Assembly: GCA_035620555.1 (NCBI GenBank)
Contig: DASPGQ010000558.1
Coordinates: 1 to 39,920, forward strand
DNA length: 39,920 nucleotides
Direction of reading: 5' to 3'
Origin: Vicinamibacteria bacterium
GTDB lineage: Bacteria > Acidobacteriota > Vicinamibacteria > Marinacidobacterales > SMYC01
Shown: piece by piece, positions 31,570-36,760 of the stretch
How positions within the stretch are numbered: the stretch's first letter is position 1
Layout: every line of letters starts with the position of its first letter
The notes under the pieces: model-generated
Seen by the model: only the letters and a program-made list of their open reading frames with translations
Databases searched by the model: none
What the model was told of the DNA's origin: nothing
Position numbers and translations under genes: made by a program

Positions 31570-32466
31570 TCACTCGAGTACTGCTCTCAAATCTCCTGAC
31601 TCCCGCGCGAGTCGTGCTCGGGCTTCAGCTGCCGAGACTGCCAATCGACCCATGACCACCGCCGTCTTGACGTTCTGAGCCGCGGCAACCAAAAGCGTCT
31701 CGGCGGTAGCGCGGTCGACTCCCGCGACCGAAGCGATGATCCTGATAGCTCGGTCGCGAAGCTTTCGCGAACCGGGTTTCAGGTCGACCATGTAGGGTCC
31801 GAAAACTTTCCCGACATGAATCATCGCGAGCAGCGTCACCTGGTTGAGCACGAGCTTCGTGGCGGTGCCGGCTTTCATCCGCGTCGAGCCGGCCAGAAGC
31901 TCGGGACCCACCGCGGGCGCGATGACGACGTCAGCCAGACGACGGACGCGGGGCCCGCAGGTCACTAACACCGTTCCTGCGCCGCCGCGGCTCGCGCGAA
32001 CGAGTGCTTCGCGCACGAAAGGCGTGATGCTGCTCGCGGAAATCCCGATCACGAGGTCTTTCGAGCCGAGCCGGTGCCTCCGCAGGGCATGCCACGCGTC
32101 GTCTGCGCGATCCTCGGCTCCCTCCTTCGAGCGAAAGACCGCTTCGCGCCCGCCGGCAACGATCGCGACGATGCGATCCGGGTCGGTTCCGAAAGTGGGC
32201 GGACACTCGGCGGCTTCCAACACCCCGAGACGTCCGCTCGTCCCGGCGCCGACATAGAAGACGCGCCCGTTACGCAGCAACGTCGTCGCGAGTCGCCTTG
32301 CGGCGCGCTCGATCGCCGCGGCTTCGTCGTGAACCGCTTTCACCACGACCCGATCCTCTCGAGCGAGCAGGTCGAGCAGTTTTCGAGGCGGCAGGAGATC
32401 GAGGTTCGTGGCCGCAGGGTGAACCGCTTCCGTGGGAAGTGATTCGAAGAGGTGCCGCTTCGACAT
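31570..32466 (-). CDS. murQ: N-acetylmuramic acid 6-phosphate etherase
   Basis: A 298-residue SIS-fold etherase that splits the lactyl ether of MurNAc-6-phosphate to give GlcNAc-6-phosphate and lactate. Family signatures are FYVGAGTSGRLGVLEAAECPPTF (with a catalytic Glu), AGGREAVFRSKEGAED (second Glu region), DLVIGISASSITPFV, STRMKAGTATKLVLNQVT and HVGKVFGPYMVDL. The ATG overlaps the stop of the pirin gene (TGATG), so the two are translationally coupled. No separate ribosome-binding site is visible. It converges with the kinase gene. Together the two form the cytoplasmic half of MurNAc recycling. Confidence 0.95.
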   Translation of the reverse strand: MSKRHLFESLPTEAVHPAATNLDLLPPRKLLDLLAREDRVVVKAVHDEAAAIERAARRLATTLLRNGRVFYVGAGTSGRLGVLEAAECPPTFGTDPDRIVAIVAGGREAVFRSKEGAEDRADDAWHALRRHRLGSKDLVIGISASSITPFVREALVRASRGGAGTVLVTCGPRVRRLADVVIAPAVGPELLAGSTRMKAGTATKLVLNQVTLLAMIHVGKVFGPYMVDLKPGSRKLRDRAIRIIASVAGVDRATAETLLVAAAQNVKTAVVMGRLAVSAAEARARLARESGDLRAVLE

Positions 32467-33308
32467 CAAGAGAGAAACGTTCCGCCGCGGTAGTCCTCGA
32501 ACGCCCTTTGGATCTCCTCCCGCGTATTCATCACGAACGGTCCGTAGCGTGCGACCGGCTCGCCGAGCGGCTTCGCGGCGACGAGGAGCGCGCGCATCGG
32601 TTGGCCGCTGGCCACGATCTCCACGGTGTCGCTCGAGCCTCGTGAGAGGACGGCGAGCTGCCCCCGTTCGATCCGCTTTCCCCCCACAATCCCTTCCCCT
32701 TCGAAGATGTAAACGAAGGCGTTGTGTGCCTTCGGCACGGGCTGAACGACGCTCGCCTTCGCGGGCACGACGATGTCGAGATAGAGCGGAGACGTCGCGA
32801 TTCCGGTGACCGGGCCCACGACACCCTCTACGACGCCGGCGACTACGCGAATTCGTGATCCATCGACGCGGGTAAGCTCGGGGATGCGCTCAGCGGGGAT
32901 GTCCTGATAACGGGGCGCTGTCATCTTGTCACGTGACGGCAGGTTGACCCACAGCTGGAATCCCCACATCAGACCCTGCTCCTGGAGAGGCATCTCCGAA
33001 TGAATGATGCCGCGGCCCGCGGTCATCCATTGGACGGAGCCCGGGCCGAGCTCGCCTCGAGCGCCGGTATGATCTTCGTGGCGCATACGACCTGCCAGCA
33101 TGTACGTGACCGTCTCGAAACCTCGGTGGGGGTGATCGGGAAATCCGGCGACGTAATCCGCACCGTCCTCGGAATGGAACTCGTCGAGAAGAAGGAACGG
33201 ATCATGGTAGTCGAGGGCCGGTGTTCCCAGGCTTCGGCGGATTCTGACGCCGGCGCCTTCGAGCGCTTCCTGAGCCGTGACGATTTGTTTGACTTCGCGA
33301 TGGGTCAT
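32466..33308 (-). CDS. Pirin-family cupin protein
   Basis: A 280-residue bicupin. The metal ligands of the N-terminal cupin are in GFPDHPHRGFETVTYMLAG (two His) and GRMRHEDHTG with GIIHSEMPLQ (His and Glu), so iron-type metal binding is likely retained. RSLGTPALDYHDPFLLLDEF at the N-terminus and WGFQLWVNLPSRDKM are pirin signatures. The start ATG 33308 has AAAGGA 7 bases upstream; the open frame continues but looks non-coding. Some pirins are quercetinases or redox-sensing regulators; the role here is open. Its stop overlaps the murQ start, an unusual partnership. Confidence 0.9.
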   Translation of the reverse strand: MTHREVKQIVTAQEALEGAGVRIRRSLGTPALDYHDPFLLLDEFHSEDGADYVAGFPDHPHRGFETVTYMLAGRMRHEDHTGARGELGPGSVQWMTAGRGIIHSEMPLQEQGLMWGFQLWVNLPSRDKMTAPRYQDIPAERIPELTRVDGSRIRVVAGVVEGVVGPVTGIATSPLYLDIVVPAKASVVQPVPKAHNAFVYIFEGEGIVGGKRIERGQLAVLSRGSSDTVEIVASGQPMRALLVAAKPLGEPVARYGPFVMNTREEIQRAFEDYRGGTFLS

Positions 33309-33385
33309 CGGTGGATCCTTTGGGAAAATACGCTCCATGTTAGCGTCATCGGGCCGATGTGCGCTAAGATTCGCGGGAAGGGTGC

Positions 33386-33406
33386 ATGAGCGAATAGGAG
33401 GCTCAT
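33386..33406 (+). promoter_or_regulatory. Hairpin holding the ribosome-binding site of the His-rich peptide gene
   Basis: ATGAGC (33386-33391) pairs exactly with GCTCAT (33401-33406). The 9-base loop between them, GAATAGGAG, contains most of the AGGAGG ribosome-binding site of the gene at 33408. Folding of the mRNA could partly block translation. Confidence 0.4.
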
Positions 33407-33407
33407 C

Positions 33408-33542
33408 ATGCTTCGGGGAGCTCTTGCCACCTTCACGGTTGTAGCGACGTTTGCGCCTTTCCTGTTGAGTCCGAGCGAGAGCGAGGCGGCGCATGGACAT
33501 CGTCACCGTTACCACCGCCATCACCTTCGGCGTGTGGAGTGA
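33408..33542 (+). CDS. 44-residue exported His-rich peptide
   Basis: ATG 33408 to TGA 33540-33542, with AGGAGG ending 7 bases upstream. Residues 1-28 are a plausible signal peptide: MLRG, the hydrophobic ALATFTVVATFAPFLL, then a cleavage region ending SEAA. The mature part is only about 16 residues, HGHRHRYHRHHLRRVE, with six His and five Arg. It could bind Ni, Cu or Zn in the envelope, or act as a cationic peptide. It lies between the divergent pirin gene and the convergent ydcF gene and has no sequence relative I can name. Coding status rests on the ribosome-binding site and signal peptide. Confidence 0.65.
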   Translation: MLRGALATFTVVATFAPFLLSPSESEAAHGHRHRYHRHHLRRVE

Positions 33543-33581
33543 CGGAGGCAACCTGCACCCTTCGCCTCTAACGCCGGCATC

Positions 33582-33598
33582 GCGGGCAGACGGCCCGC
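33582..33598. terminator. Terminator-like hairpin between convergent genes
   Basis: GCGGGC-AGACG-GCCCGC, a perfect 6-bp GC stem with a 5-base loop, sits between the His-rich peptide gene and the ydcF stop. There is no T-run on either strand, so it is at best a weak or Rho-assisted bidirectional terminator. Confidence 0.4.
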
Positions 33599-34246
33599 CT
33601 AGCGGATGAGGTTGTCGGTAAAACCAAGCGCTACGAGTCTCTCATAGGCATTCCACACCTCGTCGGGAATCGGTTGCGGGATCTGAAATCCCTTCTCGGG
33701 GTAGATCCGGATTCTTTGAAGGTCGCCCACCATGATGTGTATGACTCGCTCCACGGGAATCTCGTCGTTCGGATAGTCGTCGAAGGAAATCTGCGGTGAG
33801 GTCACGATCGCCTCCTTCTCGGGCCACATTTTCTTGAATGTCGCGTAGGTCCTTCGCTCCATGTACGGCTTCTGGACGAGGATGAAACGATCGGGATCGA
33901 GTCCCATACCGTCGAGGAGCTCGCGGGTGTAACGCACGTTCTCACCGGTATTCGTCGATCGGGTCTCGAGAAGAATGGCATCCTCGGGTACGCCCTTCTC
34001 ACGAGCGATACGGGCAAACTTCACCGCCTCGGGCTCGGCCCAAAGGTCTCTCGTGAGGTTCCCGAGCCCGCCCGAGAACACGATGCGAGGGGCGAGACCG
34101 TCGGCATAGAGCTCGGCGCCGCGCTCGGCGACGCGGAGGTCATGGCTTCCCAGAACGAGGATGATGTCGGCAGTCACGATCCGGTGGCCCATCTGGTGAT
34201 AGTGCCAAACGATGCGCGCGAGGTTTTCGACTTCAGCACTCAGCAC
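33599..34246 (-). CDS. YdcF/ElyC-family DUF218 protein
   Basis: A protein of about 215 residues of the DUF218 (SanA/ElyC/YdcF) family. ADIILVLGSHD at the N-terminus, RIVFSGGLGN, LLETRSTNTGENVRYTRELL, ILVQKPYMERRTYATFKKMWP and a C-terminal region like that of E. coli YdcF (PDEVWNAYERLVALGF) are clear. It has no membrane segment, so it is YdcF-like rather than ElyC-like. YdcF binds S-adenosylmethionine, and the family is linked loosely to envelope functions. I chose GTG 34246, which has GGGAGG 10 bases upstream; ATG 34267 and TTG 34318 are alternatives. The divergent lipoprotein gene starts 32 bases away. Confidence 0.85.
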   Translation of the reverse strand: MLSAEVENLARIVWHYHQMGHRIVTADIILVLGSHDLRVAERGAELYADGLAPRIVFSGGLGNLTRDLWAEPEAVKFARIAREKGVPEDAILLETRSTNTGENVRYTRELLDGMGLDPDRFILVQKPYMERRTYATFKKMWPEKEAIVTSPQISFDDYPNDEIPVERVIHIMVGDLQRIRIYPEKGFQIPQPIPDEVWNAYERLVALGFTDNLIR

Positions 34247-34278
34247 GCCGTGATTTCCTCCCAACATATGATAGAGGC

Positions 34279-35547
34279 GTGCGCGTCGCAGTTCTTCTTG
34301 CCAGCTCGGCCCTCGCAATGAGCTGCGCTTCTCCCGTGCCGCCGGCGGATCTCGTCTTCGTGAGAGGCAGCATCTTCGGTGCCGAAGAGGCCGTCGCGCT
34401 CGCGGTCGACGAGGGTCGCATCGTGTCGATTGGCGGAGAATCCGCGGTCCGCGATTACATGGGAAGGGGCACGGGAGTGATCGACCTCGACGGCCGGATG
34501 CTCCTTCCGAGCTTCGCCGACGCTCACGTGCACCTTTACGCCGGCTCGGAAAGCCTCGATTGGCCGCTCATCAGAGAAGCCGCGTCCTACGAGGAGCTCC
34601 TCGATATCCTGCGCGTCCACGCCGTTTCAATGCCTCCGGGAGAGTGGCTGCAAGGTGTCGGATGGCGGCACCATATCGTGGATCCCGTGCGTCGAGCCGG
34701 AACGAACGATCTCGACTCCGCGTTTCCCGATCGCCCGGTGCGGCTGATTTCTCAAGAGGCGCGAGTCTGGGCTACCTCCGAAGCGATCGATGCGGGAGCG
34801 CCCGCGGAGCGAAGTCACGAGGAGCGACTTCGAATCCTCCGACGAGGAATCCGCTACGTTCACCGTTTCGGTATCACCGCCGTGGAGACATCGGGTCTTC
34901 TCTTCCCCGAGCCCCGCAACCTCTACTCGGAACTGCAGCGCCGAGGAGAGCTCGAGCTCCACGTCCATTTCTCGGAAACGTCGTCGCACGAAGCCGAGGT
35001 TTCCTCCGCGCTGGATGCGGCGGAGAGTCGTGGCACCCATCGCATCGACGGCGTGGTCCGACTCTCCCCCCACGATATCGATAGGCTGAGGACGCGACGC
35101 CTGCTGGTTCGAGTCCATCCCTTCAAGATCTCGCCCGACTGGATTCCCGTTCGACACCGCAAGGGTCGCGAGTTTCCCCTTCGCACCCTCGAGCGTACCG
35201 GAGTGCGCCTGGCGTTCGGGAGCGACTGGCCGCTCGCGAGCCTCGATCCGCTCGCCGGTATCGCGGCCGCCGTGACGCGACAAGACTTCGAGGGAAACCC
35301 CGAGAACGGCTGGCTTCCGGAAGAGAGGCTTTCCGTGGGCGAAGCCGTCTTCGCTTACACGGGTCGGCTTCCGCGAGTGGGAGAGTTGGCCGATCTCGCT
35401 GTCGTGTCTCAGGATCTCCTCGAGCTCCCCACGGAGCTGCTCGCGGCGGTAAAGGTCGACATGACCGTCTTCTCCGGCAAGATCGTCTACGTTTCAGAGA
35501 GTTTTCTGCCCGAGCTCGATTCCTCGGTTCGAGTGAGGCTACGCTGA
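34279..35547 (+). CDS. Amidohydrolase (YtcJ-like) lipoprotein, short and with altered metal site
   Basis: A 422-residue protein. The N-terminus MRVAVLLASSALAMSC is a lipoprotein signal with the Cys at 16. DLVFVRGSIF, GRMLLPSFADAHVHLYAGSESLDW (HxH metal ligands), RFGITAVETSG and GVRLAFGSDWPLASLDPLAGIAAAVTRQ (Asp ligand) are of the YtcJ/amidohydrolase_3 type. Typical members have about 530-600 residues; here roughly 100 central residues are missing. In addition the usual HRIEHAQ motif reads HRIDGVVRLSP, so a metal-ligand His is replaced by Gly. VHPFKIS keeps the next His. The activity may be altered or lost. The start is GTG 34279. The last 61 bases overlap the convergent patatin gene. Confidence 0.82.
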   Translation: MRVAVLLASSALAMSCASPVPPADLVFVRGSIFGAEEAVALAVDEGRIVSIGGESAVRDYMGRGTGVIDLDGRMLLPSFADAHVHLYAGSESLDWPLIREAASYEELLDILRVHAVSMPPGEWLQGVGWRHHIVDPVRRAGTNDLDSAFPDRPVRLISQEARVWATSEAIDAGAPAERSHEERLRILRRGIRYVHRFGITAVETSGLLFPEPRNLYSELQRRGELELHVHFSETSSHEAEVSSALDAAESRGTHRIDGVVRLSPHDIDRLRTRRLLVRVHPFKISPDWIPVRHRKGREFPLRTLERTGVRLAFGSDWPLASLDPLAGIAAAVTRQDFEGNPENGWLPEERLSVGEAVFAYTGRLPRVGELADLAVVSQDLLELPTELLAAVKVDMTVFSGKIVYVSESFLPELDSSVRVRLR

Positions 35548-36478: not shown

Positions 36479-36760
36479 TTAATTCAGCCGGTCTTCGTCC
36501 CAGTCGTCATCCGAGTCGCCTTCCCAGCGGTCTAGCTCCTCGTCCTCGTCCTCGTCGTCGTCTTCGTCTTCGTCCTCGTCCTCGTCGTAGTCGTACTCCT
36601 CCTCGTACTCCTCCTCGTCGTCGAGATCGTCGTCATCCACGAGGTCATCCTCGAGCTCATCGTCCTCGTCGTCGGGCTCGTCGATGTCCTCGAGATCGTC
36701 GTCATCCGGCGGTTGGAACGAGGCTGAGCCGTCCTGATTGTCGGGCCCGGTGTACTTCAT
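36479..36760 (-). CDS. Extremely acidic low-complexity protein
   Basis: A 93-residue ORF in which 58 residues are Asp or Glu, by my count. The first 18 residues (MKYTGPDNQDGSASFQPP) and the last 20 are more varied; the middle is almost only D/E with a few Tyr and Leu. The DNA is correspondingly made of GTC/TTC-type triplets on the plus strand and is prone to slippage. It could be a DNA mimic, a histone-like-protein partner, a cation buffer or a disordered linker-like protein. ATG 36760 has no ribosome-binding site, but a perfect TATAAT lies 8 bases upstream. It follows namZ on the same strand by 24 bases. Function unknown; coding status is moderately supported. Confidence 0.6.
   Translation of the reverse strand: MKYTGPDNQDGSASFQPPDDDDLEDIDEPDDEDDELEDDLVDDDDLDDEEEYEEEYDYDEDEDEDEDDDEDEDEELDRWEGDSDDDWDEDRLN

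Follow-up and report, generated by a model that had tools for sequence, protein, structure and literature searches.

A 44-codon orphan reading frame with a signal-like start and a His/Arg-rich tail between pirin and DUF218 genes of a Vicinamibacteria bacterium

The window analyzed here is a 39,920-nucleotide stretch of DNA from a Vicinamibacteria bacterium (contig DASPGQ010000558.1, positions 1 to 39,920). Within it, a pirin gene and a DUF218 gene are separated by 290 bp, and a short open reading frame (ORF) on the opposite strand fills this gap. Located between two same-strand neighbors, the ORF displaces no other gene. The features of the locus are as follows.

32466–33308, minus strand: pirin gene, left neighbor (PF02678 and PF05726; the homologue match begins at the ATG at 33308)
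33337–33370, no strand assigned: imperfect 34-bp palindrome (TTAGCG-N16-CGCTAA, and CATCGG/CCGATG further in), lying where the pirin and peptide starts diverge
33386–33406, plus strand: inverted repeat ATGAGC-N9-GCTCAT, spanning the ribosome-binding site, with exact 6-nt arms at 33386–33391 and 33401–33406; a minor fold
33396–33401, plus strand: AGGAGG ribosome-binding site, separated from the ATG by a 6-nt spacer
33408–33542, plus strand: 44-codon ORF with an ATG start, comprising signal-like residues 1–27 and a His/Arg-rich tail (28–44)
33599–34270, minus strand: DUF218 gene, right neighbor (PF02698; start codon provisional)

The original prediction of a 44-codon gene with a strong AGGAGG holds at these coordinates, and the ORF translates to MLRGALATFTVVATFAPFLLSPSESEAAHGHRHRYHRHHLRRVE. 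The encoded peptide opens with a short basic segment, which leads into a hydrophobic stretch and then a candidate signal peptidase site, S25-x-A27. Under a home-made rule set for Sec export and signal peptidase I, residues 1–27 qualify as a plausible signal sequence (core mean hydropathy of 2.08, net charge of +1, S25-x-A27), in line with the signal peptide that had been proposed. The tail after this site, AHGHRHRYHRHHLRRVE, contains the six His and five Arg that had been counted, in a mature part of 17 residues for a cut after SEA27 or 16 residues for a cut one residue later (about 16 had been proposed). His makes up 14% of the whole 44-residue peptide. On sequence grounds, the locus is fairly read as a small ORF of exported type, rich in His and Arg and preceded by a strong ribosome-binding site.

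The chance of meeting such an ORF in random DNA was estimated with order-2 and order-3 Markov models, counting AGGAGG-preceded ORFs of 30–90 aa with ATG starts only. The expected number per window on both strands is 0.69 (order-2) or 0.84 (order-3). A plus-strand scan of the window found a single ORF of this kind, the one at 33408–33542, and a looser scan of both strands returned other ORFs that also match the ribosome-binding-site consensus at 6 bases. Taken alone, an ORF with AGGAGG and ATG is no more than chance would supply. The combination with the encoded peptide is rare. Among 3,834 null ORFs, 42 (~1%) have a signal-like start, 7 reach a signal core hydropathy of at least 2.0, 3 have a tail as basic as that of the peptide, and none places six His within 17 residues; only one ORF pairs a tail that basic with a signal-like start. 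The signal rule and tail thresholds were home-made and chosen once the peptide was already known, so these counts overstate the case. A real-DNA control of 662,858 strand-bases gave 6 distinct AGGAGG-ORFs of 30–90 aa, none signal-like, from loci that partly overlap, were drawn in by earlier matches and include one from the same genome (L081). Because the conjunction of signal-like start and basic tail is so rare, a purely random origin is unlikely, even allowing for the post hoc thresholds, and the ORF at 33408–33542 is probably a real orphan mini-gene.

Codon usage does not look gene-like. Gene stretches average 0.37 per codon, and the ORF reaches 0.067, a score undercut by 2.1% of gene stretches and surpassed by 18% of wrong-frame stretches. 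On synonymous codons only, it scores −0.02 against 0.18 for gene stretches, in the middle of the wrong frames and below one antisense frame. On codon content, the five other frames of 33408–33542 all fall below the ORF, the closest being an antisense frame at 0.039. The His/Arg tract becomes a run of hydrophobic residues when read in two other frames, +1 and one antisense. Codon adaptation is often absent from newly arisen genes, and the codon usage is therefore a reason for caution and not a refutation.

Relatives of the ORF were sought at the DNA and protein levels. No DNA match was found in 59 relatives outside the organism's own genome. The protein search covered the same 59 relatives and 395 genomes of the phylum besides its own, two sets that partly overlap, and gave only weak matches. 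Translations were read for 19 loci from the 59 relatives and for 12 of 14 new phylum loci (all except L192 and L198); most are Arg-rich ORFs in the wrong frame, one (L019) is a longer exported protein rich in Tyr and Gly, and no short exported His/Arg peptide occurs among them. Homologues with protein-like substitutions, the mark of a conserved small-protein family, did not emerge from these searches, and the peptide has no match in Pfam, NCBIfam, PHROGs, PDB or plasmids. No report of histidine-rich small signal-peptide proteins in Acidobacteria was found in the literature, and the portions of the literature consulted on bacterial histidine-rich small signal-peptide proteins connected with copper or the periplasm describe no such gene.

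No relative seen retains the ORF locus. Among relatives that have a complete pirin homologue, the nearest (G001; 74% identity) has no comparable ORF in the stretch upstream of that gene. Its DUF218 homologue is 73% identical and lies on a different contig, next to genes that read by eye as a glycogen synthase and an epimerase; with other neighbors around both genes, the locus is not syntenic. A minus-strand stretch upstream of pirin in G001 (L024, 900–1500) resembles, on reading, a broken permease gene. In another relative (G003), the pirin match extends to the contig end.

Searches with DNA patterns were similarly unspecific. A loose pattern matches in 183 of 193 genomes of the class and, among the matches listed, falls mostly inside ordinary genes as judged by eye. 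A stricter pattern matches 95 stretches in the genome contigs, 22 open in frame and 73 out of frame, which is no enrichment. The signal rule is satisfied by four of the in-frame readings, which are 104–160 aa long and share no likeness beyond AHGH. Unrelated exported proteins whose mature parts begin in the manner of AHGH[RH]H do exist (L107, L135, L156 and L179). Two of these, L107 and L179, are near-identical exported-type proteins of ~105 residues with SAHGHHHRQ after the signal and a body rich in Cys and His; neither is related to the peptide.

The original prediction also placed the ribosome-binding site in an ATGAGC/GCTCAT hairpin and proposed translational control through it. The arms are present as sequence. 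The stem by itself has an energy of −6.6 kcal/mol, a 35-nt piece folds into it in isolation, and an equal stem arises in 56 of 3,000 shuffles. In the local RNA ensemble, its pair probability is ~0.14 or less, and in the minimum-energy fold the ribosome-binding site pairs instead with GCUUC of the ORF. The stem was not found to be a dominant local fold exceeding shuffles, and the proposed control through it is not upheld. According to the mRNA prediction, the ribosome-binding-site GGAG is paired at ~84%, with a partner outside the named stem. The fold has a z of −2.56 over 65 nt and of −1.48 over 205 nt, where 16 of 200 shuffles are as stable, and in 48 of 300 shuffles opening the ribosome-binding site costs at least as much energy. 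These folding predictions suggest that access to the ribosome-binding site may be partly restricted, though not through the named stem nor clearly beyond chance.

Consensus searches revealed neither a sigma-70-type promoter nor a plus-strand terminator within 33200–33700. The core spacing pattern of the palindrome at 33337–33370 is expected 0.03 times per window, and the palindrome could be a putative operator; as a hairpin, it is matched in 15 of 200 shuffles. It occurs once in the genome and was rejected as a regulon signal, being a single site. A perfect 10-nt inverted repeat, GAAGGGTGCA/TGCACCCTTC, lies on both sides of the ORF at 33377–33386 and 33554–33563. An equally long repeat is found anywhere in 45 of 1,000 shuffles and in 35 of 396 real windows, and one with an arm on each ORF flank in 8 of 5,000 shuffles. 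With a pair probability of 0.08 and no second copy in the genome, in addition to these shuffle frequencies, it was set aside both as a transposon end and as a clasp between the 5′ and 3′ parts of the mRNA. No metal-transport gene was recognized among the window proteins scanned. Elsewhere in the window are a 93-residue, minus-strand ORF that is very largely Asp/Glu, has no Pfam match and lies directly downstream of a NamZ-type exo-muramidase gene (36479–36760), and a 790-residue, minus-strand ORF with an IgGFc_binding domain (PF17517; 19157–21529).

One competing account is that the frame is untranslated, an accident of the intergenic spacer in which the AGGAGG is fortuitous and the His/Arg tract reflects a run of pyrimidine-purine-pyrimidine triplets in one frame. 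The codon usage, the lack of relatives found, the expectation of 0.7–0.8 AGGAGG-ORFs per window and the hydrophobic readings of the tract in the +1 and one antisense frame all fit this account, but the rarity of a signal-like start joined to a basic tail (1 in 3,834, with the post hoc thresholds allowed for) argues against it, and we regard it as unlikely while giving it real weight. That the ORF is the leftover of a longer gene seems improbable. The locus is a break in synteny, as the separate contigs and neighbors in G001 attest, and a 29-bp stretch just past the stop codon matches an amidohydrolase-like gene elsewhere in the same genome (C683, named by eye) at 93%. However, neither the peptide frame nor the +1 frame has a Pfam match, and the 29-bp match was judged fortuitous because its alignment requires a gap and its gene context differs. 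A regulatory leader peptide, in which the His/Arg tract would sense charged tRNA (HisL-like attenuation) or export (export-monitoring arrest) and control a downstream gene, would suit an ORF of this length, with its clusters of His and Arg codons and the mRNA structure around it. However, we reject this role as very improbable because no plus-strand gene lies directly downstream: from 33599 onward the opposite strand carries DUF218, and plus-strand genes resume at 34279. The same-strand gene and intervening terminator of a HisL-type attenuator were not seen, no plus-strand terminator being present in 33200–33700, and the longest His run is two.

A serious rival is a small inner-membrane protein that retains its hydrophobic N-terminus uncleaved and acts on or at the membrane with a charged tail, in the manner of TimP or a type I toxin. 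Its weight comes from the heavy positive charge that follows the hydrophobic stretch. Five Arg within 15 residues past the presumed cut are unfavorable to Sec export and make its efficiency doubtful. With one Arg before the segment and five after it, the positive-inside rule, as described for uncleaved signals (PMC9360617), opposes easy export. TimP of Salmonella is described as a small toxic membrane protein whose predicted Sec signal is uncleaved, and most type I toxins of E. coli as 18–51 residues long (PMC7667032). By that description, TimP and the peptide are alike in being tiny and in joining a Sec-type signal to a short tail, so that length and layout both fit (PMC7667032). The pairing of the GGAG in the predicted mRNA also points this way, but the 205-nt fold is only modestly beyond shuffles. 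TimP is described with a repressing RNA, TimR (PMC7667032), whereas no antisense RNA was identified for the peptide and 32900–34400 has no Rfam match. The small-residue site S25-x-A27 suits signal peptidase I and speaks for cleavage. Weighing these points, we consider the uncleaved form rather unlikely.

The reading that we tentatively favor, while holding it at somewhat less than even, is that of a lineage-restricted orphan gene for a His/Arg peptide of the envelope that loosely chelates Cu, Ni or Zn. The ORF would be translated from its own AGGAGG to a 44-residue precursor, which residues 1–27 would target to the Sec pathway. A cut, most likely after SEA27, would release into the envelope a peptide of 17 residues that lacks Cys and is rich in His and Arg. 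This 17-mer, with an N-terminus of Ala-His-Gly-His followed by an alternation of His and Arg, would act stoichiometrically as a low-specificity chelator of Cu(II), Ni(II) and Zn(II), and its charge would be expected to rise at acid pH, as in histatins. From its composition and from the precedents of SmbP and histatins, we infer that the peptide may bind metals; chelation, like action on membranes, is put forward here as a conjecture.

Set against its nearest precedents, the peptide is shorter than SmbP, and it differs from Hpn and Hpn-2, which serve intracellular nickel handling at far higher His contents, in its signal-like start and its 14% His. SmbP is described as a small, Sec-exported periplasmic protein that binds Ni, Cu and Zn; the likeness is by description, with metal binding reported for SmbP and presumed for the peptide (PMC7137794). 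Hpn and Hpn-2 of gastric Helicobacter, small, lineage-restricted and His-rich by the account in PMC4671568, set a precedent for orphan metal proteins. The histatins of human saliva are presented as short cationic peptides, rich in His, with a connection to the binding of Cu and Zn (PMC12787115); they are eukaryotic and unrelated, and resemble the peptide in composition only. A bolder version, a bacterial counterpart of histatin in which a genus-restricted, 17-residue His/Arg metallopeptide is released to the envelope or medium and gated by an operator palindrome common to the divergent pirin gene, is a long shot.

As it stands, the locus illustrates how little one sequence decides about a 44-codon orphan. 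To our knowledge, the peptide would be, if translated, among the shortest exported His-rich peptides known. It would then lack a family in any of the libraries searched and would offer an example of an orphan micro-gene that codon-based gene callers may miss.
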